A DNA stretch of 39,074 bases from positions 1 to 39,074 of the forward strand of contig JAJPYE010000048.1 in the NCBI GenBank assembly GCA_021205095.1. Direction: 5' to 3'. Positions 9,640 to 24,289 of this stretch are shown here, one piece after another. Source of the stretch: Oscillospiraceae bacterium. GTDB taxonomy: Bacteria; Bacillota; Clostridia; Oscillospirales; Oscillospiraceae. Positions within the stretch are counted from its first letter, which is position 1. Each line of letters starts with the position of its first letter. The notes beneath the pieces are model-generated. The model saw only the letters and a program-made list of their open reading frames with translations. It was not told where the DNA came from and did no database searches. Position numbers and translations under genes: made by a program.

Positions 9640-9760
9640 ACGGGGAAGGGGGAAATTTGGGCCTGGCGCGGGACGGCCCCTCCGGCGAGCGCCTTCGGCG
9701 CCGCCGCCGCCCCGCCAGGGGCGGCCCAGCAGGGGGCAAAGCCCCCGCGCTGGCTGATTC
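9640..9760. other. GC-rich spacer without a gene
   Basis: This stretch is strongly GC-biased and holds short hairpins, such as GCGCC-TTC-GGCGC near 9690-9702 and GGGGGC-AAA-GCCCCC at 9732-9746. The second could help end the folT-ruvX-DUF1015 transcript but has no U-run. No credible coding frame is seen. It leads straight into repeat copy A and may belong to the same accessory segment. Confidence 0.5.
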
Positions 9761-9878
9761 TGTCCGACAATGCGCGGCGAGGGATTTTGTTCGCTGGCTA
9801 GGCGGGCCGACGAAGGCGTGCATTGGCACGTCGAGGAGGCCCAACGACGTCCAGCGGACAAAAGACCCGCCGCCCACG
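9761..9878 (+). repeat. Palindromic dispersed element, copy A (short form)
   Basis: It shares both ends with 22382-22602 in the same orientation. It folds into one long imperfect hairpin: GCGGC (9774-9778) with GCCGC (9869-9873), GGG (9781-9783) with CCC (9866-9868), TTTTGT (9785-9790) with ACAAAA (9858-9863), CGCTGG (9792-9797) with CCAGCG (9851-9856), GGGC (9804-9807) with GCCC (9839-9842), and CGACG (9808-9812) with CGTCG (9829-9833). The apical loop is only about 16 bases. The right end lies 3 bases from the terminator at 9882. Open frames through it are shared with copy B only in the stem, so coding is unlikely. Confidence 0.8.
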
Positions 9879-9881
9879 AAA

Positions 9882-9913
9882 GGGGGGCCGTATCCGTCAG
9901 GATACGGCCCCCC
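9882..9913 (-). terminator. Intrinsic terminator of the lipoprotein gene
   Basis: GGGGGGCCGTATCC (9882-9895) pairs perfectly with GGATACGGCCCCCC (9900-9913) around a 4-base loop. On the minus strand the stem is followed by TTTCGT. It lies 17 bases past the lipoprotein stop. The U-run is short because repeat copy A begins right there. Confidence 0.85.
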
Positions 9914-9929
9914 GGCTTGCGCTATTTAA

Positions 9930-10604
9930 TTATGCTGCGAGGAAGTCCTCGTAACTTACAACCAGACCCATCTCCACCAGCATGGCGATGGTCTCGTCGT
10001 TCTCATCCACGGCATCCTCCAGACCGGCGTTGGTGGTCTCCTTCATGTCGTCAGGAGCCATGGTGTCGGAGGCAAAGGCGTCCTTCACATACTGAAGATA
10101 GCCGTCAAAGTCCTTGGAATAGCTGGCGTCAGGCTCTACCAGGGTAGCGCCGCCGCCCTCGCCGGAGGCTTCCCCGCTGGAGGCCTCGCCGGAGGCCTGC
10201 TGAACAGCCTCGCTGACCATGCCCTCGGTGTCAGCGGCGGGCTTCCCGGCGGCGACCCAGTCGGCGTAGGTCAGCATACCCACGTTTTCATACAGCACGG
10301 TGAGCTGAGAAACGGCCTCGATCTCCTCGATGGTGGCGCAGGCGTTCACGGTCTCCGCCACGGCGGCGGCCTCTTCCTCATCCGGGGCGCCGGCGGCGGC
10401 ATAGGCGTTCACATATTCCTTGTAGCCGTCAATGTCGTCGCCCTCTTCGGCGGCAGGCTCAGCCTCGGCCTCAGCGGCGGGTTCGGCCTCCACGGCCTCG
10501 GTCTCGGTGGTCTCGGTCTCGGCGGCGGTGTCGTCGGAGCCGCCGCAGGCGGCCAGGGCGAATACCATCACCAGAGCGAGAAGCAGTGCAAGTGTCTTTT
10601 TCAT
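9930..10604 (-). CDS. Putative lipoprotein with two copies of a short domain
   Basis: A 224-residue secreted lipoprotein of unknown function. The signal peptide ends in the lipobox ALAAC (Cys20), followed by GGS and an acidic Glu/Ala/Thr-rich linker to about residue 55. Two related units follow. The first runs from DIDGYKEYVNAYAAAG to LTYADWVAA; the second from DFDGYLQYVKDAFAS to VSYEDFLAA. Both share the pattern D-x-DGY-x2-YV at the start and a Y-x-D(F/W)-x-AA ending. A Gly/Ser-rich linker (ASGEASSGEASGEGGG) joins them. The ATG has AGGAGG upstream at 10611-10616. It is a monocistronic minus-strand gene with its own strong promoter and terminator. It may be a cell-surface binding or structural protein; no known family was recognised. 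Confidence 0.85.
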   Translation of the reverse strand: MKKTLALLLALVMVFALAACGGSDDTAAETETTETEAVEAEPAAEAEAEPAAEEGDDIDGYKEYVNAYAAAGAPDEEEAAAVAETVNACATIEEIEAVSQLTVLYENVGMLTYADWVAAGKPAADTEGMVSEAVQQASGEASSGEASGEGGGATLVEPDASYSKDFDGYLQYVKDAFASDTMAPDDMKETTNAGLEDAVDENDETIAMLVEMGLVVSYEDFLAA

Positions 10605-10634
10605 TTTGGTGTCCTCCTATTTGATGATGAGGCC

Positions 10635-10663
10635 ATTATAAAACGGTCATGTTAAATTGTCAA
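10635..10663 (-). promoter_or_regulatory. Full-consensus sigma-A promoter of the lipoprotein gene
   Basis: Minus strand: TTGACA (10663-10658), 17-base spacer, TATAAT (10640-10635), both boxes 6/6. This predicts strong constitutive expression. Confidence 0.92.
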
Positions 10664-10712
10664 CAATAATTACATATTTTTAATAAATTCGCCCGGATGC
10701 CCCGGAGAATCC

Positions 10713-10741
10713 GTGACAAGGGGGACGGTATGTGATATACT
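10713..10741 (+). promoter_or_regulatory. Sigma-A promoter of the EamA transporter gene
   Basis: GTGACA (10713-10718), 17-base spacer, TATACT (10736-10741). The start of transcription would fall about 20-25 bases before the GTG start codon, leaving a short leader. Confidence 0.7.
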
Positions 10742-10770
10742 AAAAAGCCGGAAAGACGAGGTGTTTGGAC

Positions 10771-11730
10771 GTGAAAAAAAGCTCTTTGCGCAATTCCGCC
10801 CTTCTGCTGCTGACGGCCCTCATATGGGGCGTGGCCTTTGTGGCCCAGAAGGACGGCATGGAATATGTGGAACCCTTTACCTATAACGGCCTGCGGAGCC
10901 TGCTGGGAGGCGTGGTGCTGCTGGCGGCCATTCCGCTGATTGATAAGCTCCGCTCACGCCACGGCCCGGTGGAGACCGGCTCCCGGCGGAATATTCTTTT
11001 GGGTGGCGCGCTGTGCGGGGTGGTGCTGTTTGTGGCCTCCAATTTGCAGCAGTTCGGCATCGCCCTTCAGGATGCGGATACCAACGTGGGCAAGGCGGGG
11101 TTCATCACCGCCTGCTACTGCGCCATCGTGCCGGTGATGGGGCTGTTTCTGAAGAAAAAATCCCCCCTGCTGGTGTGGCTGGGCGTGGCCGTGGCTGTGG
11201 TGGGCTTTTTCTTCCTGTGCCTGATGGACGGGCTGGCTGCCGGTCAGGGCCTGGGCCTGGGGCTGAGCGATTTTCTGCTGCTGCTGTGCGCCGTGGCCTT
11301 TTCCGTCCACATTCTGGTCATCGACCATTTCTCCCCCCTGGCGGACGGGGTGCGGATTAGCTGCGTGCAGTTTCTGGTCTGCGGGGGGCTGTGCCTGCCC
11401 CTGATGTTTATATTTGAAAGCCCCTCCTGGGAAAATATCGCCGCCTGCTGGCTGCCCATCACCTACGCCGGGGTCATGTCCTGCGGGGTGGCGTACACGC
11501 TTCAAATCGTGGGCCAGCGGGGGGTGCATCCGGCGGTGGCGTCTCTGATTCTGAGCCTGGAGAGCGTGTTCTCCGTCCTGGCCGGATATGTCCTCATGCC
11601 CGGCTCCGCCCTGTCCCACTGGGAGCTGATCGGCTGCGCCCTGGTTATGGCCGCCGTGGTCATGGTGCAGCTCGCCCCCACAGGCAGGGAGACGGCGGAG
11701 GAGCTGACGATCGGAGAGAGAGGGACATAA
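10771..11730 (+). CDS. DMT superfamily transporter (EamA domains)
   Basis: A 319-residue inner-membrane protein with ten hydrophobic segments forming two EamA repeats. It belongs to the drug/metabolite transporter superfamily, which exports amino acids or other metabolites. ALIWGVAFVAQKDGMEYVEPFTYNGLRSLLGG (10817-10912) is the typical first-repeat entry, and LILSLESVFSVLAGYVLMPG near the end is the signature of the second. GTG 10771 is taken as start, with GAGG at 10758-10761 nine bases away; a TTG at 10765 is possible but closer than ideal. It is a single gene between a promoter and a terminator. The substrate is not predictable from sequence. Confidence 0.9.
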   Translation: MKKSSLRNSALLLLTALIWGVAFVAQKDGMEYVEPFTYNGLRSLLGGVVLLAAIPLIDKLRSRHGPVETGSRRNILLGGALCGVVLFVASNLQQFGIALQDADTNVGKAGFITACYCAIVPVMGLFLKKKSPLLVWLGVAVAVVGFFFLCLMDGLAAGQGLGLGLSDFLLLLCAVAFSVHILVIDHFSPLADGVRISCVQFLVCGGLCLPLMFIFESPSWENIAACWLPITYAGVMSCGVAYTLQIVGQRGVHPAVASLILSLESVFSVLAGYVLMPGSALSHWELIGCALVMAAVVMVQLAPTGRETAEELTIGERGT

Positions 11731-11801
11731 CAAATCATTATACCTTTGTATCCTGTATCTGTGAAAATAACCTTTAACATATAAATCACAAAAATTCTTA
11801 C

Positions 11802-11840
11802 CCCCCGCTGTCTCGGTTCGCTGTGACGGCGGGGGATTCT
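11802..11840 (+). terminator. Intrinsic terminator after the EamA gene
   Basis: CCCCCGCTGTC (11802-11812) pairs with GACGGCGGGGG (11825-11835), with one T-G wobble. It is followed by ATTCTTTCGGTTTATTT. It separates the EamA gene from the ABC operon. Confidence 0.75.
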
Positions 11841-11900
11841 TTCGGTTTATTTACAAACATTAACAAAATGTTTATAAAATTATCGCTTTTGGTCACGAAC

Positions 11901-11932
11901 TTGTCACAAACAGACAGGGGAATTGGTATAGA
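11901..11932 (+). promoter_or_regulatory. Probable promoter of the Gld-type ABC operon
   Basis: An extended -10 (TGGTATAGA, with TATAGA at 11927-11932) lies 36 bases before the TTG start codon. TTGTCA at 11901-11906 is 20 bases upstream, too far for a standard -35; TCACAA at 11904-11909 is 17 bases away but a poor match. The extended -10 is the main support. Confidence 0.5.
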
Positions 11933-11967
11933 ATGAGTGCATATGTGAAAGCAAGGAGGTCTTTGCG

Positions 11968-13044
11968 TTGATAGAGGTAAGCCATCTTACCAAGCGCTAT
12001 GGCAGCCATCTGGCCGTGGACGATTTGAACTTCACTGTGGAAAACGGGGTAGTCTACGGCTTTTTGGGGCCGAACGGCGCGGGGAAGAGTACCACCATGA
12101 ACATCCTGACAGGATGCCTTGCCGCCACCAGCGGCACCGTCACCATCGACGGATACGACATTTTTGACCAACCGGCGGAGGCGAAGCGGCGTATTGGGTA
12201 TCTGCCGGAGCTGCCGCCCCTGTACGTCGGCATGACGGTGCGGGAGTATCTGACCTTTGTGGCCAGAGCCAAGGGGGTTCCATCCAAGGAGCAGGAAGCC
12301 CAGCTTGCCCATGTGATGGAGGTGACAGGCACCACCGAGGTAGCCGACCGGCTGATTAAGAACCTGTCCAAGGGCTTCCGCCAGCGTGTCGGCATTGCCC
12401 AGGCTATTTTAGGCGACCCGGCGGTGGTGATTCTGGACGAGCCTACCGTGGGCCTTGACCCCATTCAGATCATTGAGATCCGGGATCTGATCCACGAGCT
12501 TGGCAAAGAGCATACGGTCATCCTGTCCAGTCATATTCTAAGCGAGGTGCAGGCGGTATGCGACCAGATCCTCATTATCAACCGGGGAAAGCTGGTGGCC
12601 TGCGGGGAACCCCAAAGCCTGGAGGAGCAGTTCGCCGGAGAAGCCACCTATAAATTGACCGTGAAGGCCTCCGCCGCCGCTGCGGAGCAGGCGCTGAAAA
12701 ACGTGGAGGGCGTGCAGAAGATAGAGACCCAGGAGGGGGCGGAGGGCCGGTGCGACCTGACCGTCACCGTGTCCGATCTAAGCTCCGAGATGGACGAGCG
12801 GCTATCCTTTGCCATGAGCGACCGGCGCATCCCGGTGCTGCGTCTGGAGCGGGAGCAGGCAAGCCTGGAGGACGTGTTCCTGACCCTGACCGCCCAGGCC
12901 GAGGCGGAGCGGGAGAGCCAGGAGAAAAAGGGCGGCAGAGGCAAAAAAGCCTGGTTCAAGGGCGGCAAGACCGCCGAGACGATCGCTGAAACGACGGACG
13001 CCCCCGCTCCGGCGACAGAGAATGAAAAGGAGGCGGAGCAATGA
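11968..13044 (+). CDS. ABC transporter ATP-binding protein, GldA-like
   Basis: A 358-residue ATPase that would energise the permease encoded next. Walker A GPNGAGKST is at residues 34-42, the signature is LSKGFRQRVGIAQA near 133-146, Walker B VVILDEPTVGLDP starts near 153, and the switch histidine is in ILSSHIL near 186-192. After the core (about 1-225) comes the C-terminal domain typical of GldA/NatA-like ATPases, then a charged low-complexity tail (ERESQEKKGGRGKKAWFKGG, then acidic). The start is TTG 11968 with AAGGAGG at 11953-11959 and an 8-base spacer. The stop overlaps the permease start as ATGA. The four-gene set matches the gliding-motility-type ABC systems found in many non-gliding bacteria; their cargo is unknown. 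Confidence 0.9.
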   Translation: MIEVSHLTKRYGSHLAVDDLNFTVENGVVYGFLGPNGAGKSTTMNILTGCLAATSGTVTIDGYDIFDQPAEAKRRIGYLPELPPLYVGMTVREYLTFVARAKGVPSKEQEAQLAHVMEVTGTTEVADRLIKNLSKGFRQRVGIAQAILGDPAVVILDEPTVGLDPIQIIEIRDLIHELGKEHTVILSSHILSEVQAVCDQILIINRGKLVACGEPQSLEEQFAGEATYKLTVKASAAAAEQALKNVEGVQKIETQEGAEGRCDLTVTVSDLSSEMDERLSFAMSDRRIPVLRLEREQASLEDVFLTLTAQAEAERESQEKKGGRGKKAWFKGGKTAETIAETTDAPAPATENEKEAEQ

Positions 13045-13913
13045 GCGCCATTTACGAACGGGAGCTGGACAGCCAGCTCAATGGCCTGACCGGGTATATT
13101 TACGGGGCGCTGATGCTGCTGTTCGGCGGCATATACGTCATGGCCTATAACCTGTCCGGGTATACCCAGTTTTCCTATGTGCTGTACAGCATGGAATTTG
13201 TCATGCTGATAGCCGTGCCGCTGCTGACCATGCGGTCTATCGCGGAGGAGCGGCACCAGCGGACAGATCAGCTTCTGTACTCCCTGCCCATGAGCATGAC
13301 GAAGATCGTCCTGGGCAAGTATTTCGCCCTGGTGACGGTGATGGCCCTGCCCATGATCGTCATGGCTCTGTACCCGGTGGTAATCAACGCCATGACGCTG
13401 TCCGGCTCCATCCCCCTGAAAAGCGCTTATGGGGCGCTGATCGGGTTCTTTTTCCTGGGACTGGCCCTGGTAGCCATCGGGCTGTTCATCTCTTCCCTGG
13501 TGGAAAGCTCCGGCGTGGCGGCGGGCTGCTGCTTTATCGTGCTGCTGCTTCTCTACTTCCTGTCGGCCCTGACGGATTATATGTCCAGCGCCGCGTGGGT
13601 GTCCTTTGTGGTGCTGGCGGTGGTAGTGGTTCTGCTGGGCGTGCTTTTGTGGCGGCTGACGAAAAACGGAAGCTTCGCCCTGATGTTTTCCATCATTCTG
13701 GGGGCCGTGCTGCTCATCTGCTTTATGATCTGGCAGGACGCCTTTTCCGGGCTGATCGTCTCGATTTTGGAGCAGCTCGCAGTTTTCGACCGCTTTGACA
13801 ATTTTACCTATGATATATTCGACATTACCAGTATTGTATATTATATAACGGTGGCGGCAGTGTTCCTGTTTCTCACCGTGCAGTCTATGGAGCGCAGGAG
13901 GTGGAGCGAATGA
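13041..13913 (+). CDS. ABC-2 type permease, GldF-like
   Basis: A 290-residue integral membrane protein with about six to seven helices, the membrane partner of the ATPase at 11968-13044. MSAIYERELDSQLNGLTGYI at the N-terminus is the usual cytoplasmic elbow helix. The segment MLIAVPLLTMRSIAEERHQR, then TDQLLYSLPMS (13206-13295), is the conserved ABC-2 coupling motif (M-R-x2-EE-x4-T-x2-LL-x-LP). It ends near the membrane with VQSMERRRWSE. It is coupled on both sides by ATGA overlaps. The whole operon therefore appears to be translated in step, as expected for subunits of one complex. Confidence 0.9.
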   Translation: MSAIYERELDSQLNGLTGYIYGALMLLFGGIYVMAYNLSGYTQFSYVLYSMEFVMLIAVPLLTMRSIAEERHQRTDQLLYSLPMSMTKIVLGKYFALVTVMALPMIVMALYPVVINAMTLSGSIPLKSAYGALIGFFFLGLALVAIGLFISSLVESSGVAAGCCFIVLLLLYFLSALTDYMSSAAWVSFVVLAVVVVLLGVLLWRLTKNGSFALMFSIILGAVLLICFMIWQDAFSGLIVSILEQLAVFDRFDNFTYDIFDITSIVYYITVAAVFLFLTVQSMERRRWSE

Positions 13914-15520
13914 ACACCCAGAATAACCCGGAGCGGGAGCCGAACCAAGCCCCGGAGACCGAGACGGAATGGACGCGGGAGACCGTGGAGGAGCAGGCCC
14001 CGGAGACTTCGGAGACGGAAGCCCCGGAGACGGCTGCATCTGAGACTTCCAAGACAGAGACCGGGAAGAAACAGAAGGGCTCCGGCAGGCTTCAGGCCGC
14101 CTTTAAGACCAGATCCTGGCGGGCCGGCTCCTACAGCATATTCGCCGCCATTGTGGTCATCGCCATCGCCGTGGTGGTGAACCTGGTGGTGAACGCCCTG
14201 CCCAGCTCCGGCACCCAGCTCGATATGACGGAAAACCAGATCTATTCCATCTCCGACCAGACCAAGCAGATTCTTGGCTCTCTGGATACGGACGTGGAGG
14301 TATACTGGATCGTCCAGTCCGGCAGCGAGGACGCCACCATGGAGCAGGTGCTGGCGAAATACGCGGAATACAGCCACGTCACCGTCACCTCCGTTGACCC
14401 GGTGGTGTATCCCAGCTTCGCCAGCCAGTATACGGATGAGACCATCACCAACAACAGCCTGCTGGTGGTCTGCGGGGACAGAACCATGTACATCCCCTAC
14501 TCCGACATCTGGACGTATTCTGACTACTCAACGTATTATTATTACTACTATTATTACGGCGAGGAATACCTGGACGTGTTCGCGGGAGAGAGCCAGCTCA
14601 CCAGCGCCATCGGCTATGTGACCAGCGACGACCTGCCCATTATGTACATCCTCACCGGCCACGGGGAGAGCGGCGTTTCCGACGACGTGCTGGACGCCAT
14701 CAATATGGATAACATCCAGACCGAGGAGCTGAGCCTTCTCACGGTGGACGCCATCCCGGAGGACTGCGCGGTGCTGGCCCTGTTCGGCCCCACCAGCGAC
14801 CTGTCCGCCGACGAGGTGGCTATCATCGAGGCCTACCTGGCTGAAGGCGGGGAGATGATCATCACCACCGAATACACCGAGGAGGACATGACCAATTTTG
14901 AGACTCTTCTCGCAGACTGGGGCCTGGATCTTACCAACGGCTACGTGCTGGAGAGCAACAGCAGCTATTACTACTATGGCTACATCGACCTGATCCTGCC
15001 CACATTGGGGAGCCACGACATTACCTCCCCGCTGACGGAGGACGGCTACAGCGTGCTGATGCCCGACGCCCAGGGCCTGACGGAGATCGGGGAGAACGAC
15101 GACCTGACGGTCACGGCCCTGCTGACCAGCAGCAGCTCCTCCTACATCAAGGAGAGCCTGACCGGCCTGACCAGCTATGAGCAGACGGACGACGACCCCG
15201 CCGGCCCGTTCCTGCTGGGGGCGGCGGTGGAGAGCGCAAGCTCCGGCGGCAAACTGGTGGTGTTCACCTCTACCCTGTTTATGGAATCGGACTACAGCGG
15301 CCTGGTTTCCGGGGCCAATGAGGACTTGTTCCTGAACGCGGTGGACTGGCTGTGCGAGAAGGATTCCTCCATTTCCATCCACACCAAGACCATCAGCAGC
15401 GATTACCTGTCCTTCTCGGACAGCTCTGCCGGCACGCTGAAAACATTGCTGGTCATCGTGGTGCCGGTGCTGTTTTTGGCCTCCGGCGTGGTCATATTCA
15501 TTCGAAGGAGGCGGCGCTGA
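13910..15520 (+). CDS. GldG-like auxiliary protein of the ABC transporter
   Basis: A 536-residue protein of the GldG / ABC-type uncharacterised transport auxiliary family. Residues 1-60 are acidic and repetitive (ETETEWTRETVEEQAPET). A first transmembrane helix follows near residues 76-98 (SIFAAIVVIAIAVVVNLVVN). The extracytoplasmic part starts with the family pattern LDMTENQIYSISDQTKQIL and includes IMYILTGHGE. The C-terminus has a second helix and an RRRRR end. Eight tyrosines in a row (residues 209-216, codons at 14534-14557) and a second Tyr cluster near residue 356 are unusual. ATG 13910 has AGGAGG at 13896-13901; the stop shares one base with the next start. Role in the complex is unknown. 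Confidence 0.87.
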   Translation: MNTQNNPEREPNQAPETETEWTRETVEEQAPETSETEAPETAASETSKTETGKKQKGSGRLQAAFKTRSWRAGSYSIFAAIVVIAIAVVVNLVVNALPSSGTQLDMTENQIYSISDQTKQILGSLDTDVEVYWIVQSGSEDATMEQVLAKYAEYSHVTVTSVDPVVYPSFASQYTDETITNNSLLVVCGDRTMYIPYSDIWTYSDYSTYYYYYYYYGEEYLDVFAGESQLTSAIGYVTSDDLPIMYILTGHGESGVSDDVLDAINMDNIQTEELSLLTVDAIPEDCAVLALFGPTSDLSADEVAIIEAYLAEGGEMIITTEYTEEDMTNFETLLADWGLDLTNGYVLESNSSYYYYGYIDLILPTLGSHDITSPLTEDGYSVLMPDAQGLTEIGENDDLTVTALLTSSSSSYIKESLTGLTSYEQTDDDPAGPFLLGAAVESASSGGKLVVFTSTLFMESDYSGLVSGANEDLFLNAVDWLCEKDSSISIHTKTISSDYLSFSDSSAGTLKTLLVIVVPVLFLASGVVIFIRRRRR

Positions 15521-17268
15521 TGAAACGCGGTGCGAAATTAGGCGTCCTGGTGGCGGCCCTGGCCGTCCTGGTGGGCGCGTGGGGCCTGATCAATTACCTG
15601 ACAACGCAGAAGGAGGCCGCCGACGCGGCCCTGGAGATAACAGATGACGACATCGACCTGGCGGTGGGGGAGCATGACGACGTGACCGCCCTTTCCTGGA
15701 CGTACAGCGAAAGCACGGTGAACCTGACCTATGACGCGGATTCGGAGACCTGGGTCAACGCCGACGACGAGACCTGCCCCATCGACCAGGAGGCGGTGGA
15801 CGCGCTGGTGACGGCGGTTTCCTCCACCTGTGCCTCCCAGGAGGTGACGGACGTAGAGGACTTTGAGCAGTACGGCCTGGATGAACCCACCCTGACGGTG
15901 ACGGCCTCCACGGCGGACAGCACCGTCACCTACGCCGTGGGCAGCACCAGCCTGACCGGGGAGTATTACGTCCGGGTGGACGGGGGTACCTCGGTGTATA
16001 CGGAGACCGGCCTGCTGGCCGGGGCCTTCCAGGTGCAGATCGACGACCTGCTCCAGCTTGAGAGCGCCCCGGAGGACATCGCCTCCGTGGTCAGTTTGAG
16101 CGTGGATACGGACGTCACCTCCTATACCGTCGAATATATCGAGGACGCCACAGACATTTATTACACCGACGCCTATACCTGGTTTTTGACCGCCCTGGAC
16201 GGGGTGGATTACACGGCGGCAGCCGAGACCTCTGAGGAAACATCCTCCGCTGAAACTGCGACAGAGGCCGGGGATGAGACAGAGGACAGCGCCGAGGCCG
16301 AAGCCGAGGACGCCTCCCAGGAGGCGGAGACCGTGGCTGCGGAGACCGCCGTCACGACCACCGGGGTCACGGCCCTGGATGAGGATTCCGTCACCACGCT
16401 GTATGAGCTGGTAAGCGGCATTTCCTTCCTGTCCTGCGAGACATGGAACGCTGACGACCTTTCTGCCTACGGCCTGGACGACCCCCAGGGAATTGTCACC
16501 CTGACCTACCTGGATTCGGAGGACGAGACCCAGACCTTCACCCTGGAGTTCGGGGACTACACCAGCGGCTATGTATATGTCCGGCTGGCTGAGTCCAACA
16601 TGGTCTATCTGGCCGACGGCTCCATCCTGGACGGGCTGATGTATCCCGACTGGACGAGCATGACGCCCCTGACCCTGACGCCCCTGGACTGGGACACTGT
16701 CACCACCATTGCGGTGACGCTGGACGGAGATATGGTCTATGAGATCGAACGCACCTATACCATCGAAATGGTGGAGGTCGAGGTTGAATCGGAGGACGAG
16801 GAGGAATCCGAAGAATCGGAGGACACTGAAGAATCCGAAGATACCGACGAAGAGTCCGAAGAAGCCGAAACCGAGCTGGTGGAGACCCAGGTGAACAGCT
16901 ATACCTGGGGCGACAAGAGCCTGGACGCGGACGACATGGACGCATGGCTGGATGATGTATACGCCCTGACCGCCGCCAGCCTTGCCGACACGGAGGAGGG
17001 CCGTTCCGAGGTGATGACCATCACCTTCCAGCGGGACGCCGACGTGTGGTCGGAGGTGACTGTCACCTTCTGGAAATACAGCAGCACCCAGTACCTGTGC
17101 CAGCTTAACGGAGACACCTATTTCCTGGTGTCCAGCTCCACGGTGGACGGGCTGTACGACGACATCTGGGAGATCCTGACCGCTGAGGAGGAGACCGAGG
17201 AGGACGCGGAAGCGGAAGCTGACACAGAGACCGAGGACGCCGACGCCGACACGGAAACCGAGTCGTAA
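15520..17268 (+). CDS. DUF4340 domain membrane-anchored protein
   Basis: A 582-residue protein with one N-terminal anchor (KLGVLVAALAVLVGAWGLINYL) and the rest outside. DUF4340 units are seen as repeats of the form ...YGLDEPTLTVTAS and YGLDDPQGIVTLTYLD with VYVRLAESNMVYLADGSIL. They are separated by very acidic low-complexity inserts near residues 235-285 and 420-450 (Glu/Ser/Asp/Thr), and the protein ends in an acidic tail. DUF4340 proteins usually accompany GldA/F/G sets, as here. ATG 15520 has AAGGAGG at 15505-15511; the overlap with the upstream stop is TGATG. The acidic inserts suggest a flexible surface-exposed protein, perhaps cation-binding; that is inference. Confidence 0.85.
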   Translation: MKRGAKLGVLVAALAVLVGAWGLINYLTTQKEAADAALEITDDDIDLAVGEHDDVTALSWTYSESTVNLTYDADSETWVNADDETCPIDQEAVDALVTAVSSTCASQEVTDVEDFEQYGLDEPTLTVTASTADSTVTYAVGSTSLTGEYYVRVDGGTSVYTETGLLAGAFQVQIDDLLQLESAPEDIASVVSLSVDTDVTSYTVEYIEDATDIYYTDAYTWFLTALDGVDYTAAAETSEETSSAETATEAGDETEDSAEAEAEDASQEAETVAAETAVTTTGVTALDEDSVTTLYELVSGISFLSCETWNADDLSAYGLDDPQGIVTLTYLDSEDETQTFTLEFGDYTSGYVYVRLAESNMVYLADGSILDGLMYPDWTSMTPLTLTPLDWDTVTTIAVTLDGDMVYEIERTYTIEMVEVEVESEDEEESEESEDTEESEDTDEESEEAETELVETQVNSYTWGDKSLDADDMDAWLDDVYALTAASLADTEEGRSEVMTITFQRDADVWSEVTVTFWKYSSTQYLCQLNGDTYFLVSSSTVDGLYDDIWEILTAEEETEEDAEAEADTETEDADADTETES

Positions 17269-17290
17269 AGCCAGGTGAGTTAACACAATA

Positions 17291-17333
17291 AGGGCCGCAT
17301 CAAAACGGAAGTTTTGATGCGGCCCTGGTTTAT
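17291..17333. terminator. Bidirectional intrinsic terminator
   Basis: AGGGCCGCATCAAAAC (17291-17306) pairs perfectly with GTTTTGATGCGGCCCT (17311-17326) around GGAA. GGTTTATATT follows on plus and TTATTGTGTT on minus. It sits between the convergent ABC operon and flavoenzyme gene and can serve both. Confidence 0.88.
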
Positions 17334-17350
17334 ATTAGCAGGGATGATTT

Positions 17351-19321
17351 TTAAATTTGAGCGGCAGCGTCGTAAGCGGTGCGGTTGGCGTTGCGGATGT
17401 TGGAGGCCTTCAGGCAGTCGCCCAGCTTGAAGAACTTGGGGGCGCAGTTGCGGAACTTCTCCGCCTGATCCTCCAGGGGCTTCCGGCCAGAGGAGAACAC
17501 CACGGTGTCCGCGTCCAGGAAATGCTCGATGCCGTCGGTACCCTTGTAGCCCACCTGGGTGGGGGTGATCTGGGTCACGGGGCTGGACAGGTACAGGTGG
17601 CAGTACTTGGGAACGCGGTCATACAGGGCCAGCTCCTGGGCATAGGCGGAGGTGGCGGCGATGCGATCCATCATCTCGATGATGGACACATCCTTGCCCT
17701 GCTCCATAGCCAGGTACAGGGCGGCCTCGCAGCCGACCTCGCCGCCGCCGATGAGGACGACCTTCTGGCCGATCTCGTCCGCGTGGCCGAACACGTCCAC
17801 CGCGCACATGACGCGCGGGTCGTCGTGACCGGGGATGGGAAGCACGATGTTGGAAGCGCCGAGAGCGGTCATGACCACGTCGTAATGCTCCGCCTCGATC
17901 ATCTCCGGGGTGGCCTCCACGCCCAGACGCACGTCCACATTCAGCTTCTTCATCATGCCGATGCGGTAGTTCATGTAGTCGTTCAGGGAGTATTTAAAGG
18001 TGGCGTACTTGGCGAAGTTGATGGTGCCGCCCAGCTTGTCGTCCTTTTCATACAGCGTGACCTTGTGGCCCCGTTCGGTGCAGAACTGGGCCGCCGCCAT
18101 ACCGGCAGGGCCGCCGCCGATGACCGCCACACGCTTGGGGGTGGAATTTTTGTTCTCAAACTGGTCGAGGATGTACTCACGGCCCACGGTGGGGTTGCCG
18201 GAGCAGCAGAACTCCTCCTCCATGTCGTAGCTCAGGCAGACGAAGCACTTCAGGCAGGGGATGATCTCATCCTCCCGGCCCTCCGCGGCCTTGTTGACGC
18301 ACTGGGCGTCCACGATGGTGCCGCGGGCCATGGCCACGATGTCCGCCCCGCCGGAGGCGAGGGTCTCCTCGATCAGCTCAGGCTTCTGGAACGCGCCGAG
18401 GGTCAGCACGGGCTTGGAGAAGCCGGATTCCTTGACCTGGCGGGCAAATTCCTTGTTGACGCCGGCGGGATAGAACTCCACCGGGTGCATACGGGTCTGG
18501 GTCACGTCGTCCATTATGGTGCCGCAGGACACATGGGCGATGTCGATGTCTTCTTCGACCCGCTTGAGGAAGTCAATGCAGTCGTCGATGGTGCCGCCGC
18601 CCTCGGTCAGCTCGTCGCCGGAGACGCGAACCTCGATGGGTACGCGGGGGCCGACAGCGTCACGGACGGCCTTGATGAGCATCATGGGGAAGCGGGCGCG
18701 GTTTTCACGGGAGCCGCCGAACTCATCCGTCCGCTGGTTGGACAGGGGGCTGAGGAACTGGGCGGGGAAGGTGCCGTGGCCCAGGTGGAGCATGATCATG
18801 TCGAAGCCCACGCGGACAGCGTTTTTCGCGGCCTGGGCATAGTCGGCGCACATACGCTCCATGGCAGCCTTGTCCAGCGCGGGACACCACTCGCCAGTCT
18901 CCTCATCGTTCTCGCCGTTGACGGACCAGCAGACCACTTCGCCGTCGATCTCCTCATGGCGGGAGAAGGCCAGCAGCTCCAGGCTGATCTTGGCGTCAAA
19001 GAAGTGGACGGCGCTGGTCAGGCGGTACCAGTAGTTGTGGTACTGCATATTGAAGATGTCCGGGTCAGAGTGGAACTCATCCGGGTGGCCCACCATCCAG
19101 CGATCCATGTTCTGGGCGGAGAAGGTGATGCAGGCCGCACCGCCGCGGGCCTTCTCCCGGTAGTGGGCGATAACCGCCTCGTTGGGGTACGGCTCACCGG
19201 CCCCCAGCAGATGGGCGCCGGTGGGGGCGGTCCAAATGCGGTTTTTGAAGATGATTCCCGGCCAGCGGCCTCTCGCGCCGATGGTAATGGGGCTGAACAT
19301 CGTGGGATATTTTCTTTCCAT
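17351..19321 (-). CDS. FMN/FeS/FAD enzyme of the enoate reductase / BaiCD family (Old Yellow Enzyme fold)
   Basis: A 656-residue NAD(P)H-dependent flavoenzyme. Residues 1 to about 345 form an OYE TIM barrel (APTGAHLLGAGEPY; FLSPLSNQRTDEFGGSRENR). The iron-sulfur motif near 355-372 reads CLKCFVCLSYDMEEEFCC. A FAD/NAD domain follows, with VAVIGGGPAGMAAAQF near 395 and VVLIGGGEVGCEAALYL near 519. This layout matches 2-enoate reductase, 2,4-dienoyl-CoA reductase and the bile-acid enzymes BaiCD/BaiH, which reduce activated or conjugated C=C bonds anaerobically. Two oddities: the spacing between the second and third cysteine is shorter than the usual C-x2-C-x3-C, and the catalytic Tyr region reads GHGTF instead of xHGYL. 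The substrate is unknown. It is a single gene with its own promoter. Confidence 0.9.
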   Translation of the reverse strand: MERKYPTMFSPITIGARGRWPGIIFKNRIWTAPTGAHLLGAGEPYPNEAVIAHYREKARGGAACITFSAQNMDRWMVGHPDEFHSDPDIFNMQYHNYWYRLTSAVHFFDAKISLELLAFSRHEEIDGEVVCWSVNGENDEETGEWCPALDKAAMERMCADYAQAAKNAVRVGFDMIMLHLGHGTFPAQFLSPLSNQRTDEFGGSRENRARFPMMLIKAVRDAVGPRVPIEVRVSGDELTEGGGTIDDCIDFLKRVEEDIDIAHVSCGTIMDDVTQTRMHPVEFYPAGVNKEFARQVKESGFSKPVLTLGAFQKPELIEETLASGGADIVAMARGTIVDAQCVNKAAEGREDEIIPCLKCFVCLSYDMEEEFCCSGNPTVGREYILDQFENKNSTPKRVAVIGGGPAGMAAAQFCTERGHKVTLYEKDDKLGGTINFAKYATFKYSLNDYMNYRIGMMKKLNVDVRLGVEATPEMIEAEHYDVVMTALGASNIVLPIPGHDDPRVMCAVDVFGHADEIGQKVVLIGGGEVGCEAALYLAMEQGKDVSIIEMMDRIAATSAYAQELALYDRVPKYCHLYLSSPVTQITPTQVGYKGTDGIEHFLDADTVVFSSGRKPLEDQAEKFRNCAPKFFKLGDCLKASNIRNANRTAYDAAAQI

Positions 19322-19394
19322 GCTTCAATGCTCCTATATGTATAATTTCCTTTTAGACTTGGGATTTTCGCTAATTTCCTATCCTACTTAAAGT

Positions 19395-19422
19395 ATTATA
19401 TCATAAATACCTGATTGTGCAA
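19395..19422 (-). promoter_or_regulatory. Promoter of the flavoenzyme gene
   Basis: Minus strand: TTGCAC (19422-19417), 16-base spacer, TATAAT (19400-19395). It leaves a leader of about 65 bases before the ATG at 19321, with AGGAGC as ribosome binding site. Confidence 0.7.
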
Positions 19423-19541
19423 GGGAATATTAAAACAAAATTGTCCCCGAAGATAAAGGGGATTTTTGCCCCTCTGCGCCAGAAAAAACGGGACTGCGGG
19501 AAAAAATTCACATAGGTATGGCGCATCTTCGCTTTTTCGTG

Positions 19542-19547
19542 TATAAT
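19542..19547 (+). promoter_or_regulatory. Candidate -10 box for the DegV gene
   Basis: TATAAT lies 45 bases before the DegV start. No good -35 is found 16-18 bases upstream (TGGCGC), so only the -10 supports it. Confidence 0.4.
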
Positions 19548-19591
19548 ATAATCAAACTTGAAACGAAAAAAAACGAACAGGAGGCGATCTC

Positions 19592-20482
19592 ATGGGCGGC
19601 AAGTTTATCCTTTCCTGCGGCTCCACGGTGGATGTACCCTTTTCCTATATGGAGAAGCGGGACGTGCCGGTGATTTTCTATTCCTATACGGTGGACGGTC
19701 AGGAGTACCTGGACGACATGGGCCGGGATCCCCAGGCGCTGCCCCGGTTTTATGAAATGCTGAAGGAGGGCAAGCTCCCCTCCACCAGTCAGGTGAACAT
19801 CCAGCAGTACCGGGACTTTTTCGCGGAGCAGCTTGAAAAGGGCGACCTGCTCCATGTGGCCTTCGGCTCCGGGATGTCCGCCTTGGTGAACAACGCCCTT
19901 CTGGCGGCGGAGGAGCTGCGGGAGGAGTACCCGAACCGAAAGCTGGTGGTGGTGGATTCCCTTTGCAGCTCCTCCGGCTACGGCCTGCTGGTGGACGAGG
20001 CGGCGGATATGCGGGATCGGGGCTGCACCATAGAGGAGACAGAGCAGTGGCTTCTGGCCAACCGAAACCGGGTGCATCACCAGTTCTTCTCCACCGACAT
20101 GACTATGTTCCGGCGCAGCGGGCGGGTGTCCGGCCCCACGGCCACCATCGCCACCATTTTGAACATATGCCCCATCATGCGGCTGGACGACCGGGGGCGC
20201 ATTATCGCCTACGGCAAGGTGCGGGGCAGGCCCGCCGCCGTCCGCACCACCATCGAGACTATGGACAGGCACATTCAAAATGGCCGGGACTATGACGGCA
20301 AGCTCTGGGTCTGCCACTCCAACTGCCCGGACATCGCCCAGCCCTTCCGGGAGACCCTGAAAGAGCATTACCCCCGTGTGAAGGACATCCCCATGTTCGA
20401 CATCGGCACCATCATCGCCGCCCACTGCGGGCCGGGAACGGTGGCGGCCTTCTTTATGGGGGACGAGCGGGAACCTGAATAA
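19592..20482 (+). CDS. DegV family fatty-acid-binding protein
   Basis: A 296-residue cytosolic protein of the DegV/FakB family. Members bind a fatty acid and, with the FakA kinase, present it for phosphorylation; the partner is not in this window. Family marks are STVDVPFSYMEKRDVPVIFY near the start, PSTSQVNIQQYRDFF at the fatty-acid-binding loop, HVAFGSGMSALVNNA, VVVDSLCSSSGYGLLV, and FRRSGRVSGPTATIATILNI followed by CPIMRLDDRGRI in the second domain. The C-terminal IGTIIAAHCGPGTVAAFF is diagnostic. ATG 19592 has AGGAGG at 19579-19584 with a 7-base spacer. It stands alone between divergent and convergent neighbours. Which lipid it binds is not predictable. Confidence 0.93.
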   Translation: MGGKFILSCGSTVDVPFSYMEKRDVPVIFYSYTVDGQEYLDDMGRDPQALPRFYEMLKEGKLPSTSQVNIQQYRDFFAEQLEKGDLLHVAFGSGMSALVNNALLAAEELREEYPNRKLVVVDSLCSSSGYGLLVDEAADMRDRGCTIEETEQWLLANRNRVHHQFFSTDMTMFRRSGRVSGPTATIATILNICPIMRLDDRGRIIAYGKVRGRPAAVRTTIETMDRHIQNGRDYDGKLWVCHSNCPDIAQPFRETLKEHYPRVKDIPMFDIGTIIAAHCGPGTVAAFFMGDEREPE

Positions 20483-20503
20483 ATAGGAACCGACATACAG
20501 AAA

Positions 20504-20533
20504 GGCCCTGTCAAGCCGTGACTTGACAGGGTC
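20504..20533. terminator. Bidirectional terminator between DegV and anti-sigma genes
   Basis: GGCCCTGTCAAG (20504-20515) pairs with CTTGACAGGGTC (20522-20533), with one G-T wobble. It is followed by TTAAACTTTT on plus and TTTCTGT on minus. Confidence 0.8.
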
Positions 20534-20554
20534 TTAAACTTTTGGCGGGAAAGT

Positions 20555-21649
20555 TTATCCGTTCAGCGTCATGCTCTCCGCAACCTCCACCAGCGCCTCC
20601 ATGGTCAGGGTGTCCGAGGTGAGCTGGAACACAAGGCAGTTTTCCGTGTCCACCCAGGAAAGACCATAATAGTTGTCGCCCAGGGCGTAATAGGCGGCCA
20701 GTTCGCCGTTTACGGTTGTTGCTGTGTAGCCGCGGCCCCCGGTTTGCAGGGAGAGAACGTATTCCGGGGTGTTGCCAAATTCCACGCCCGTCCCCGCGTC
20801 CTCCGTCAGGTTGTAGCTCTCGTAGCTGAAATGCAGCTCGTCGTGACCGCTGTTTTCGTAGGTGTAGCGCACATAGGCGTACCAGCCGCCGCCGCTGGAC
20901 AGGGGGGAGGCGGTGAAGCTGGCCTGCTCATAGCCCTCCGGCGGGGTGATCTGGTAGTCCCCCAGATCCGCCAGGGCATGGCTGTAGCCGCCGGACAGGG
21001 TGGGGGTCAGGGCTTCGTCCAGCTCCTCCACGCTCTCCGCCATGGCCGTCAGGTCTACGGCGTCGTCGTCCGTGGTCAGGGAGAAGCCCAGGCCCCTGGC
21101 CCCGTCCGTCCAGAACAGCAGCCGCTCCGTGGCGGTGGTGTAGAGGACGCCCTCCGCCTCGCCTACGGTAACGGACTGGGTGTCGGTGACGTTGTCCATT
21201 GTCACCTGGCCGCCCTCGATGTCGCCCTGGACAGACAGCGTGATATAATGCCCGTCCCCGTTTTCAAAGCGGATGGTCTGATAGCCGTAGGCGGGGTCGG
21301 ACACGAAGCTGAGGGCGTAGCCCTCTGGTATCTCGCCGGGGTACCAGTTGCCCAGCTCCACATAGTCCTCGTCCGTGGCCTGGAAATCCACCTCGATGTA
21401 GTCCCCCATGTCTGTGGATACCAGCTCCACGCGGGAGATGGCCAGGGCAAGGGCGGACACGGTCAGCACGCACACCGCCGCAATCAGCGCCACGGCAAGC
21501 TTGGGCGCCTTGCGCCTGTGATTTTTCTGCATTTGAATGACCTCCTTCTTCGGCTGGGAGGCCGCCTCCGCCAGCGTCCGCCGGATGCGCTCGTCCGCGT
21601 CGGCTGGCAGCGTGATTTTGTCGAACGCGCCGCGAATTTTATCCTGCAT
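20555..21649 (-). CDS. Anti-sigma-like membrane protein with DUF4367 region
   Basis: A 364-residue single-pass membrane protein encoded just after an ECF sigma factor. Residues 1-45 are cytoplasmic (MQDKIRGAFDKITLPADADE) and would hold the sigma factor. A transmembrane helix spans about 48-71 (APKLAVALIAAVCVLTVSAL). The rest is outside and ends in a DUF4367-like part (LVFQLTSDTLTMEALVEVAESM), which often senses envelope conditions in Firmicutes. There is no HxxxCxxC zinc motif, so it is not a ZAS-type anti-sigma. Its ATG at 21649 lies inside the sigma gene (11-base overlap), a common arrangement that keeps the two proteins balanced. The signal sensed is unknown. Confidence 0.85.
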   Translation of the reverse strand: MQDKIRGAFDKITLPADADERIRRTLAEAASQPKKEVIQMQKNHRRKAPKLAVALIAAVCVLTVSALALAISRVELVSTDMGDYIEVDFQATDEDYVELGNWYPGEIPEGYALSFVSDPAYGYQTIRFENGDGHYITLSVQGDIEGGQVTMDNVTDTQSVTVGEAEGVLYTTATERLLFWTDGARGLGFSLTTDDDAVDLTAMAESVEELDEALTPTLSGGYSHALADLGDYQITPPEGYEQASFTASPLSSGGGWYAYVRYTYENSGHDELHFSYESYNLTEDAGTGVEFGNTPEYVLSLQTGGRGYTATTVNGELAAYYALGDNYYGLSWVDTENCLVFQLTSDTLTMEALVEVAESMTLNG

Positions 21650-22133
21650 AGTCAGCCTCCAATTTCGATTTCAATCGCTTTCTGGCTCTGTCCAGCCGGG
21701 TGGACACGGTGGAGCGCTTCAGCCCCAGCATTTCGCCCACCTCGGCGGTGGAATAGCCCTCGTAGTAATAGAGATACACCACGGCCCGTTCCTCCTCCTT
21801 CAGGGACATCACCGCCTGGAACACCTCGTTTTCCTCCGGGGCGTCGAAGGGCAGCTCCAGCTCCTCCAACGGCTGGGTCTTCCGCCGCCAGGCGGAGCGG
21901 AGAAGGCTTTTGCAGAGATTGGCCGTCACCGACGCCAGCCACTGCCGTTCCTTGCCGGGGGTGATCTCCCCGCAATGCTCCAGCAGCCGGAGAAAGGCCG
22001 TCTGGCACACGTCCTCCGCGTCCTGGGGGGATTTCGTATAGCTCAGGGCCAGGCGATAGACCATCTGCTTGTGGGCCTCGTAAAGCTCCATAATGCCGCC
22101 ATAGGCAGGCGTCGTATCGGATTCCGGGGTCAT
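21639..22133 (-). CDS. ECF-type sigma-70 family RNA polymerase sigma factor
   Basis: A 164-residue group IV sigma factor with only regions 2 and 4. Region 2 is visible as YEAHKQMVYRLALSYTKSPQ, then DAEDVCQTAFLRLLEH (the conserved D-A-E-D-x2-Q). Region 4 is SLKEEERAVVYLYYYEGYST, then AEVGEMLGLKRSTVSTRLDRARKRLK, a clear helix-turn-helix. The ATG at 22133 is preceded by AGGAGG at 22141-22146. It overlaps the anti-sigma gene by 11 bases. It probably directs an envelope-response regulon and perhaps its own promoter, but no recognisable autoregulatory promoter was found in the 100 bases upstream. Confidence 0.92.
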   Translation of the reverse strand: MTPESDTTPAYGGIMELYEAHKQMVYRLALSYTKSPQDAEDVCQTAFLRLLEHCGEITPGKERQWLASVTANLCKSLLRSAWRRKTQPLEELELPFDAPEENEVFQAVMSLKEEERAVVYLYYYEGYSTAEVGEMLGLKRSTVSTRLDRARKRLKSKLEADYAG

Positions 22134-22381
22134 GGCACACCTCCTTTCCTCATCGTGACCGGTCTGTAAATAAGACGCCGCAAAGGCCCAAACGGTCTCA
22201 GGATAAAAAATTATTTTGCAGTCAAACGCAGAAAAAGCCCGCCATGCAGCCCGCGAAGCGGGAGCATCAGGGCCAAAAACCTCAAATCATGCCAAGCGAA
22301 AAATTTGTGGGTCAGCCTACAATTCAAGGTGTCCGACAACACCAAACGAAAAAATCCAACAGCCGGACTATAAATTTAGGT
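22134..22381. other. Intergenic stretch between sigma gene and repeat copy B
   Basis: No credible gene is seen. From 22200 on the base composition turns AT-rich. The 10-mer TGTCCGACAA occurs at 22330 and again at 22382, where copy B starts; the first is within the palindrome GGTGTCCGACAACACC. The flanking bases are also alike (AATTCAAGGT versus AAATTTAGGT), so this looks like a partial duplicate of the repeat's left end. Confidence 0.45.
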
Positions 22382-22602
22382 TGTCCGACAATGCGCGGCG
22401 AGGGATTTTGTTCGCTGACGAGGCGGGCCGACGAAGGCGTATCCCTGGGGCCCCCGCAAAGCTGGCTTTGTGGGGAGAGGAGGCGCAAAGGGAGCGTGCG
22501 GATGCTCTTTTTGCAAAAAAGAGCGTAGATAAGCGGACTTTGTGCCGACGACGTCGAGGAGGCCCAACGAAGCTCAGCGGGCAAAAGACCCGCCGCCCCC
22601 GT
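22382..22602 (+). repeat. Palindromic dispersed element, copy B (long form)
   Basis: The outer arms match copy A (9761-9878). Stem pairs are GCGGC with GCCGC, GGG with CCC, TTTTG with CAAAA, CGCTGA (22413-22418) with TCAGCG (22574-22579), GGGC with GCCC, and CGACG with CGTCG. Instead of copy A's small loop it carries about 115 extra bases with their own hairpins: CCCCGCAAAG/CTTTGTGGGG (22452-22475) and a GCTCTTTTT/AAAAAAGAGC palindrome (22504-22524). The last stem pair is A-T here but G-C in copy A, a compensatory change. The right end abuts the terminator at 22603. Confidence 0.8.
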
Positions 22603-22639
22603 AAAAAAGAGTGGACTGCTTTCGCAGCCCACTCTTTTT
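22603..22639 (-). terminator. Intrinsic terminator of the flavoprotein operon
   Basis: AAAAAGAGTGG (22604-22614) pairs with CCACTCTTTTT (22629-22639); inside, CTGC pairs with GCAG around TTTC. On the minus strand the stem runs into TTTTTT. It lies 15 bases past the FAD protein stop. Confidence 0.9.
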
Positions 22640-22653: not shown

Positions 22654-24204
22654 TTATTCGACGAAGTCGTCGCCTTCAATATAGTCCCATGCCTCCATAC
22701 CGGCCATGCGGCCGGAGTTCAGGGCCCAGCTCATGGTGGAGCCGGGGTTATAGAAGCAGTACTCGCCGCCGAACACCACGTTGGCGGTGTCGGTGCCGCA
22801 GGCGAACAGGCCGGGGATGGGGCAGTCGTCGGACTCGCGGAGAACCTTCATGTCGTGGTTGACCTTGATGCCGCCCAGAGAGCCGTAGCCGGAGGGGAAG
22901 TGGCGGGCCACATAGTACTTGTCGCCAGTGATGGGCCGCAGCCAGCGGGCGGGCTTGCAGAAGTCGGCGTCGTAGCCGCCGGCGAAGCTGTTGTACCGCT
23001 CGATGGTCTTCTTGAGGGTCTTCAGGTCGATGCCCGTCACCTCGCAGACCTCCTCCAGGCTGCTGCACTCATAGAAGTTGTTCTCCTGAGGCTCGTTCTC
23101 GTCCTGATACTGAACGCCGTTGTCGGCCATAAAGACGCTGTTCTCGGCAGCGGACTTCACGCCGGAGAAGTACAGCTCCTTCTCATGCTCCCACTTGTTC
23201 AGATCCTTCACCGCGTGGTGATAGGTGATGTAGTCCAGGCCATGCTCCTTCATGTAGTCGATGCCGTCCTGGCCGATGATGGAGAAGGCACGGTGGCCCG
23301 CCTGGGCGTTGATGGCGTTGCCGGTGAAGGTGGTGTTGTTCATGATCTGCTCGTTGATGATGCGCTCGCCGTGGATGTTCACCATGATGGTGGAGGGCTG
23401 ACGCATGGCCTCGGACAGGGTCTTGAACACGTCGGTGGTGCCGGGGGTGTTGTAGGTCACTTCCATGGAGATGGGGGCCTTGGTGGCGCCGATCTTCCAG
23501 GCCATCTTCATGCCGTCGCCGTCCAGGCCGGGGATGCGGAAGGTGAACATATCCTTGCCCCAGGTGAAGCCCAGGTACTCCTTGATCATCTCCACGTTGT
23601 TGCCGATGCCGCCGGTGCCGATGATAACGGCGTCCGACAGGCACTCGACCTCCTCGCCGCTCTCGTCCACGGCGATCACGCCCAGAACCTGGCCCTTGTC
23701 GCCCACGATCAGCTCACGGGCGGGGGTGCGGAAGTGGAAGTCCACGCCCAGGGAGTTGGCGTAGTCGGTCATCAGCTTGACCATGTGGCTGGCCTGGCGC
23801 TCGGCGGGCTTGTTGGCGCCGGGGAGCTTGATCATGTGCTGGGTGATGTGGCTGTCCTGGAAGTATTTGTAAGCGCCCAGGATCTCCACGCCGAAGTTTT
23901 CCACCCACTCCACGGTGGAGGCGGACATATTGAACCAGCGGCGGACGGTTTGGGCGTCGGCCTTCCAGTGGTTGTACTCCATGGTGAACTTGAAGGCGTC
24001 GTCCTTCGTCCACTCGATCATCTGGTCACGCTGGACATGGGACTCCACGGCGAAGAACGCCATGCCCATGTTGGCCGCGCCGCCAGTGGTGCCGCTCTTT
24101 TCAAAGACCACGACCTGCGCGCCCTTCTCCGCCGCCTGGGTGGCCGCTGTCAGGCCGGACAGGCCGCCGCCGACAACGCAAATATCGGCTTCCAAATGTT
24201 TCAT
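22654..24204 (-). CDS. FAD-binding dehydrogenase/reductase, fumarate-reductase-like flavoprotein fold
   Basis: A 516-residue flavoprotein of the FAD_binding_2 family, which includes fumarate and urocanate reductases and 3-ketosteroid dehydrogenases. The N-terminal dinucleotide motif is VVGGGLSGLTAATQAAEKG, and the end has FGGEYCFYNPGSTMSWALNSGRMAG-type FAD contacts (22690-22770). The substrate-domain segment reads SGYGSLGGIKVNHDM, where true fumarate reductases have HHTMGG, so plain fumarate reduction is unlikely. There is no signal peptide or heme/FMN domain, so it should be cytosolic. ATG 24204 has AGGAGG at 24219-24214; an upstream extension to 24324 would run into the preceding gene. It is last in a probable four-gene unit. 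Substrate unknown. Confidence 0.87.
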   Translation of the reverse strand: MKHLEADICVVGGGLSGLTAATQAAEKGAQVVVFEKSGTTGGAANMGMAFFAVESHVQRDQMIEWTKDDAFKFTMEYNHWKADAQTVRRWFNMSASTVEWVENFGVEILGAYKYFQDSHITQHMIKLPGANKPAERQASHMVKLMTDYANSLGVDFHFRTPARELIVGDKGQVLGVIAVDESGEEVECLSDAVIIGTGGIGNNVEMIKEYLGFTWGKDMFTFRIPGLDGDGMKMAWKIGATKAPISMEVTYNTPGTTDVFKTLSEAMRQPSTIMVNIHGERIINEQIMNNTTFTGNAINAQAGHRAFSIIGQDGIDYMKEHGLDYITYHHAVKDLNKWEHEKELYFSGVKSAAENSVFMADNGVQYQDENEPQENNFYECSSLEEVCEVTGIDLKTLKKTIERYNSFAGGYDADFCKPARWLRPITGDKYYVARHFPSGYGSLGGIKVNHDMKVLRESDDCPIPGLFACGTDTANVVFGGEYCFYNPGSTMSWALNSGRMAGMEAWDYIEGDDFVE

Positions 24205-24275: not shown

Positions 24276-24289
24276 GGGGATTACCTGAT

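Follow-up and report, generated by a model that had tools for sequence, protein, structure and literature searches.

Two long imperfect palindromes on the same strand of one bacterial contig raise the question of whether such sequences are structured RNAs or small transposons, and of whether it is their sequence or their fold that is kept. The contig, a stretch of 39,074 nt from an Oscillospiraceae bacterium (GenBank assembly GCA_021205095.1, contig JAJPYE010000048.1; hereafter the window), belongs to a draft genome of 2.34 Mb in 66 contigs, designated G000. Its two palindromes, copies A and B, are members of a dispersed repeat family with a conserved fold on one strand, whose relatives in other species have transposon ends, target duplications and a matching insertion sequence of the IS5 family. 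We consider the element to be a non-autonomous mobile hairpin, akin to a miniature inverted-repeat transposable element (MITE), with a core conserved for its fold, and assign this reading a probability of roughly 0.6.

Two copies in the window and the fold they share

The copies, their parts and the evidence by which each was delimited are the following:

9761..9878, plus strand: copy A, of standard length, a TGTCCGACAATGC box followed by the hairpin (sequence, BLAST, fold, covariance model)
9777..9870, plus strand: hairpin core of copy A, GCGAGGGATTTT ... AAAAGACCCGC (covariance model R2, 86.3 bits)
22382..22602, plus strand: copy B, a long version, with its core at 22398-22593 (sequence, fold, orthologue comparison)
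22441..22550, plus strand: 110-nt apical insertion of copy B (orthologue comparison)

An initial annotation of the window had described two same-strand copies with common ends and the same long imperfect hairpin, a description that identities and folds confirm: A and B are 97% identical over 59 nt on the 5′ side and 89% identical over 54 nt on the 3′ side, and they fold at −68.9 kcal/mol (z −5.4) and, for B with six flanking bases, at −106.9 kcal/mol (z −3.8), none of 200 shuffled sequences being as good in either case. That the apical parts differ, as it also stated, is borne out by G001, G003 and G005 (G001-G005 being the closest relatives of the window's species among the genomes searched), where orthologues of copy B occupy the corresponding position and all lack the 110-nt insert; the extra sequence is thus an insertion or replacement. 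It recurs, 88-94% identical, in five other copies from three species (G002, G004 and G005), so that what had seemed a variable apical domain is in fact another sequence, borne by one sub-branch of the family, and its presence accounts for the poor detection of copy B by covariance models R1 (E 0.023) and R2 (no report). In two other G000 copies the lower stem is interrupted by a different insert, about 134 nt long. Short matches (77-86%) to the copy B insert occur at other element-carrying loci (L061:972-1012, L062:993-1035 and L163:1519-1580). Copies A and B are older than the split of some of these species; the site of copy A in G004 is a deletion derivative retaining the element's right end, not an empty site, and no target duplication is evident around either copy by eye, with no formal test made.

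A covariance-model search for further copies in the host genome and in other Oscillospiraceae, set beforehand as a test, found many. Within G000, a model built from nine copies gave 26 matches at E≤1, 22 of them at E<1e-6 and a few of them halves of interrupted copies, while BLAST with copy A reached 29 places at E≤1, down to matches of 15 bases. Standard G000 cores, from GGCGAG to CCCGCC, are 96-98 nt long. From GCGAGGGAUUUU to AAAAGACCCGC, the core of about 95 nt consists of two variable stems, each followed by an internal loop, the first of these loops being purine-rich, and then an apical hairpin.

The compensatory change reported at the outset, G9797-C9851 in copy A and A22418-T22574 in copy B, is real and recurrent: the corresponding columns 37-93 of the nine-row alignment A2 hold A-U in five rows, G-C in three and an unpaired combination in one. 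Within G000 alone, 11 of 33 pairs have changed on both sides, with 29 double-change cells against 10.9 in shuffled alignments. The proposal that the fold rather than the sequence is kept gains its main support from alignment A3, comprising 46 cores (39 of 52 representatives from the wider searches described below and seven G000 copies), in which 24 of 32 pairs have changed on both sides. Pairing is retained in 90.4% of its cells, against 67.8% after shuffling and 40-47% with slid partners; double-change cells number 351, against 125.1 and 71-113, respectively; and the covariation score is 0.572, against 0.162 (sd 0.011) in the shuffled sets. Single positions at the internal loops, outside the searched ends, are conserved as well (A26 in 41, G29 in 36, A77 in 35 and G79 in 43 of the 46 cores), as is the pair G28-C78 (41 of 46); A4, G7-A8 and G97-A98 are likewise unpaired and conserved, but lie inside the searched pattern.

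The folding unit is a single strand of fixed polarity, as follows from two asymmetries. With RNA and with DNA energies alike, the plus strand gives the better fold of the two in 118 of 121 cores (one being a tie) and in 50 of 52 representatives; the same holds in 16 of 16 G000 copies. Moreover, G-U occupies 106 cells of A3 against 18 for A-C (83 against 18 without one column).

Host range, transposon ends and orientation beside genes

The element is common in the family and patchy beyond it. With G000 counted throughout, it is present in 30 of 35 genomes of the same genus, in 67 of 250 family genomes (44 of 106 genera) and in nine of 299 genomes drawn from the phylum; at most 14 candidates were scored per genome in the family and phylum searches, and copy numbers there are lower bounds. 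A 23-base pattern, GCGAGGGATTTT-N62-90-AAAAGACCCGC, recovered at least 116 stretches from 84,980 species genomes, against a chance expectation of about 0.2 (for even base composition) and no match for the reversed pattern in six genomes. The matches listed include Anaerotruncus, Intestinimonas, Flavonifractor, Oscillibacter, Dysosmobacter and Pseudoflavonifractor, Plastoroseomonas, Belnapia, Rubritepida, Sphingobium, Aureimonas and Roseomonas among the alphaproteobacteria, and elsewhere Verrucomicrobia, Planctomycetota, a Deltaproteobacterium and Geothermobacter. Because several of these hosts are represented by strain genomes, not metagenome bins, binning error does not explain the spread. 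In Geothermobacter hydrogeniphilus (L150, 3549-3930) the core stands in three tandem copies at a spacing of 135 bases, and at apparently matching intergenic positions across species of the window's genus (L070, L072, L078 and L079; L081 and L082; L069, L071 and L076) the motif is kept and the sequence changed. Viral contigs yielded four matches to the pattern and none to its reverse. Neither copy A nor the Anaerotruncus element matched any plasmid or phage record, and the Sphingobium element, searched against plasmid records only, matched two Aureimonas replicons.

Elements of many other species extend past the core into inverted ends. In Anaerotruncus sp. G3, matches to these ends number 43 in forward and 37 in reverse orientation (control 0) and are mostly paired at one spacing; the element they bound is 163 bp long, has no transposase gene and is flanked by identical 3-bp sequences, mostly TAA or TTA, in 10 of 13 complete copies. 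Two groups were distinguished among the Alphaproteobacteria, by eye from the element flanks: AlphaA, with inverted ends, and AlphaB, without them, although one AlphaB locus (L220) has an AlphaA-like flank. Exact inverted repeats of at least 8 nt occur in the flanks of 11 of 13 AlphaA and 17 of 17 Intestinimonas elements; the count for Anaerotruncus under this strict test, 1 of 11, is low owing to a few transitions that separate its two 18-nt ends. Some Intestinimonas elements (e.g., L124 and L146) have TTGACA near the right end, pointing outward, and could on this account supply a −35 box to the neighbouring gene.

The same Anaerotruncus genome holds two full-length insertion sequences, and their ends correspond to those of two types of the element in Firmicutes. 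One, of 824 bp, has GAACCTGTATTCA ends with one mismatch at the right end and 3-bp flanks (TGA/TGA and TTA/TTA) in both of its bounded copies; the other, of 847 bp, has GGGCTTGTTTGAAAAAT ends, an end type also found on the elements of Intestinimonas and other Oscillospiraceae, and TA on both sides in all seven bounded copies. Both frames of the 847-bp element match the NCBIfam model transpos_IS5_3 (NF033580), as do both frames of the 824-bp element, each half there falling below the whole-protein cut-off. IS427-group elements of Paracoccus are 832-865 bp long, with mostly 2-bp duplications and two overlapping frames (PMC3281130). The 847-bp element has the features of the IS427 group of the IS5 family (size, two frames, inverted ends and a 2-bp duplication), whereas the 824-bp element differs from that group in its 3-bp duplications. 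The hairpin core was sought in both insertion sequences and is in neither.

The window's own subfamily is a derived form. Its matches are frequent only in G000-G005, where each genome has 9-22, the remaining 29 genomes of the genus having 0-7, and many of its copies carry the TGTCCGACAATGC box instead of inverted ends; four older G000 copies (L046, L047, L049 and L050) have such ends. A 12-base form of this box, GTCCGAYWATGC, has 10 exact places in G000 (controls, one forward and one reverse), all of which adjoin the element or sit in short tandem units upstream of it, of which the window offers an example, with a unit number that varies between species:

22330..22381, plus strand: 52-bp tandem unit opening with a TGTCCGACAA box, immediately upstream of copy B

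A separate short palindrome, AGCAGGGGGCAAAGCCCCCGCGCTGGCT, lies just upstream of copy A, at 9728-9755, with variants upstream of L004, L012, L013 and L015, and is possibly another REP-like family (repetitive extragenic palindromic sequences) that clusters with the element.

Orientation relative to genes separates elements with and without inverted ends. Gene orientations and ends come from a simple caller based on codon usage; cases classed as edge, far or inside-gene were left uncounted. The gene to the right of an end-bearing element (19 in Anaerotruncus, 16 in Intestinimonas, 11 in AlphaA and 16 in Clostridia) is on the minus strand in 30 of 62 cases, a near-random orientation, as against 31 of 36 for end-less elements (12 of 12 in AlphaB and 19 of 24 in G000; p 0.0002). 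The difference persists when the four G000 copies with inverted ends are removed, leaving 16 of 20 in that genome (p 0.0003), and also when three groups set aside for being small or heterogeneous (other Oscillospiraceae, 16 of 23; Verrucomicrobia/Planctomycetota, 5 of 6; Plastoroseomonas, 1 of 3) are added to the end-bearing set (31 of 36 against 52 of 94, p 0.001). In the window's subfamily, most copies are antisense to a gene and stand just beyond its 3′ end. The adjoining gene in AlphaB has its stop codon mostly 1-5 nt from the core, and in a set of 26 loci, one of them from a planctomycete, a frame ends near the element in 25, at −1 to 5 nt in 21 of these; this count, which takes a single frame per locus, the longest, is weaker evidence than the 12 of 12 for AlphaB. 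In AlphaA, 10 of 14 gene ends facing the element sit 31-35 nt from the core, that is, at the element's end; insertions can sit exactly at stop codons because TNA targets include TAA and TGA. Of ten neighbouring genes of the kind described for AlphaB, eight have a Pfam match, to families of ordinary cellular proteins (type II secretion F, twice, DapB, Ppx/GppA, prephenate dehydratase, IF-1, TypA/BipA and an M41 peptidase with an AAA domain), and two have none.

Of 24 G000 copies, 8 are followed at once on the 3′ side by a terminator-like hairpin, assigned by eye; these include both copies in the window, whose hairpins were located from the sequence by eye and from folds of the downstream 100 nt, with no terminator scan:

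9882..9914: hairpin resembling a terminator, adjoining copy A on its 3′ side, where the minus-strand gene 9930-10604 ends
22603..22639: hairpin resembling a terminator, adjoining copy B on its 3′ side, where the minus-strand gene 22654-24324 ends

The window also contains, at 7573-7670 on the plus strand, a tetrahydrofolate (THF) riboswitch (Rfam RF01831, 92.3 bits) upstream of a membrane-protein frame near 7680-8204.

Mobile hairpin or RNA

Inverted ends of IS5-family (IS427-like) type frame the core in AlphaA, in Anaerotruncus and in numerous further members of the Oscillospiraceae and Clostridia. In the explanation that we prefer, an IS5-family transposase would move these end-bearing elements in trans, generating the TA or TNA target duplications. 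One strand would have to fold, and the core would be kept for a reason of its own: it probably has its own role, since several end types share one core that is absent from the two insertion sequences examined. Folded into a hairpin as single-stranded DNA, the plus strand might then be what a protein recognises when the element is mobilised. Between this and a dedicated RNA we lean slightly towards DNA, given that the strand that folds is in most cases antisense to its neighbour in the end-less groups and unoriented elsewhere. The initial suggestion of a MITE-like element accordingly stands for the relatives, with their inverted ends, target duplications and matching IS5-family element, and less well for the window's own subfamily, which has no recognisable inverted ends.

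Several points weigh against this explanation. None of 16 G000 copies has inverted repeats of at least 8 nt in its flanks, DDE_Tnp_1 was sought in the draft G000 genome with no match, and comparisons at the sites of copies A and B and at a third place yielded no clean empty site, that of a further copy being rearranged in G003. As to the fold, 13 of the 52 representatives were excluded from A3 on visual inspection, on account of their length or of an inner part that differed, and the core ends are invariant in 39 of its rows by construction, the pattern having demanded exact ends; the seven G000 rows, collected by BLAST, retain these ends with at most two changes. Strand-biased mutation could, furthermore, explain part of the excess of G-U over A-C.

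The alternative that survives best, possible though on balance improbable, is a structured non-coding RNA whose plus strand is transcribed, whose internal loops bind protein or RNA, and which IS5-family ends merely spread. Covariation, conserved internal loops and a tolerance of G-U on one strand are typical of RNA, and to this extent favour the RNA half of the annotators' "RNA or MITE-like" proposal; strong covariation alone, though, does not identify a non-coding RNA, and in those 31 of 36 end-less copies the strand that folds better runs antisense to its neighbouring gene, with near-random orientation in the end-bearing groups. Nor does any Rfam family match the element at the gathering threshold in the window and six loci. 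At E≤1 the six loci gave one FMN (flavin mononucleotide) riboswitch and three sub-threshold matches; one of the latter, BjrC68, which overlaps the end of the L013 copy, was set aside at 20.4 bits against a threshold of 39 (E 0.24). The partial coverage that we obtained of the literature on MITEs, IS5/IS427, structured RNA, Oscillospiraceae repeats and stop codons names no such element, and the palindromic candidates of PMC8040213 could include this hairpin family.

An ordinary palindromic MITE, whose arms match through template-switch self-correction with no selection on the fold, would equally produce long palindromes with inverted ends and target duplications, but self-correction should erase mismatched loops, and A26, G29, A77 and G79, together with the in-pattern A4, G7-A8 and G97-A98, stay unpaired and conserved; it also predicts no strand bias, contrary to what nearly all cores display, and we regard it as very unlikely. 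Still harder to credit is a REP/RAYT system, with repeats mobilised by a Y1 tyrosine transposase (RAYT, REP-associated tyrosine transposase): intergenic hairpins beyond gene ends in several phyla do recall REPs, as PMC3733652 presents them, and G000 and G005 have one Y1_Tnp match each, but such matches occur in only 7 of 25 draft genomes, which does not support this enzyme as the mover, with none in G001-G004 or in the four end-less Alphaproteobacteria searched, the G000 match is split over two frames, and the element measures 95-165 nt against 20-40 for REPs. The G000 match, at L112/L113 (G000:C32:71236-71599), lies in two different frames and looks broken.

Comparison with known systems

Integron attC sites are imperfect palindromes with unpaired bases and a variable apex, which lie directly 3′ of a gene and whose folding strand is antisense to it. 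The element resembles them in its imperfect palindrome with unpaired bases, variable apex, position 3′ of genes and antisense folding strand. It is not, however, identified as attC: the boxes RYYYAAC / GTTRRRY were not seen by eye in the elements inspected, no formal scan being made, and the eight of ten neighbours that match ordinary Pfam families are not cassette-like. We can nevertheless envisage, as a rather doubtful extension of the mobile-hairpin reading, a strand-specific hairpin-recognising mobility system with no need for inverted ends, operating in Oscillospiraceae and in a group of Alphaproteobacteria; it would place the core, mostly in fixed orientation, beyond the stop codons of ordinary chromosomal genes, with the antisense strand folded as in attC, and an enzyme would recognise the core as a portable structure, one that IS5-family ends would have captured repeatedly.

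BOX, ERIC and RUP are dispersed, intergenic, modular palindromes, RUP being described as a MITE, and are known only from narrow host groups. Compared by such descriptions, not by sequence, the element is like them as a dispersed intergenic palindrome and unlike them in the breadth of its hosts. REPs of the GTAG and CGTC families are simple hairpins of 20-40 bp, some of which supply a stop codon (PMC3733652). With REPs and bacterial interspersed mosaic elements (BIMEs) the element has in common that it is palindromic, intergenic, situated beyond gene ends and found in several phyla (PMC3733652). It departs from them in its core of about 95 nt with internal loops, and in having no consistent Y1 transposase.

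Another close parallel is with IS5-family MITEs with IS427-like ends, since the element is likewise short and gene-free, and shares inverted repeats and TA/TNA duplications with full-length elements in Anaerotruncus sp. G3. It is unlike them in the window's subfamily, which lacks inverted ends, and in its interior, which is no relic of either insertion sequence examined and has a fold-conserved core common to phyla and end types. MITE interiors are commonly regarded as leftovers. Here, a fold kept in the interior across several phyla and end types, and absent from two insertion sequences that share those ends, is probably functional, and raises the question of whether it acts as single-stranded DNA in transposition or as RNA.

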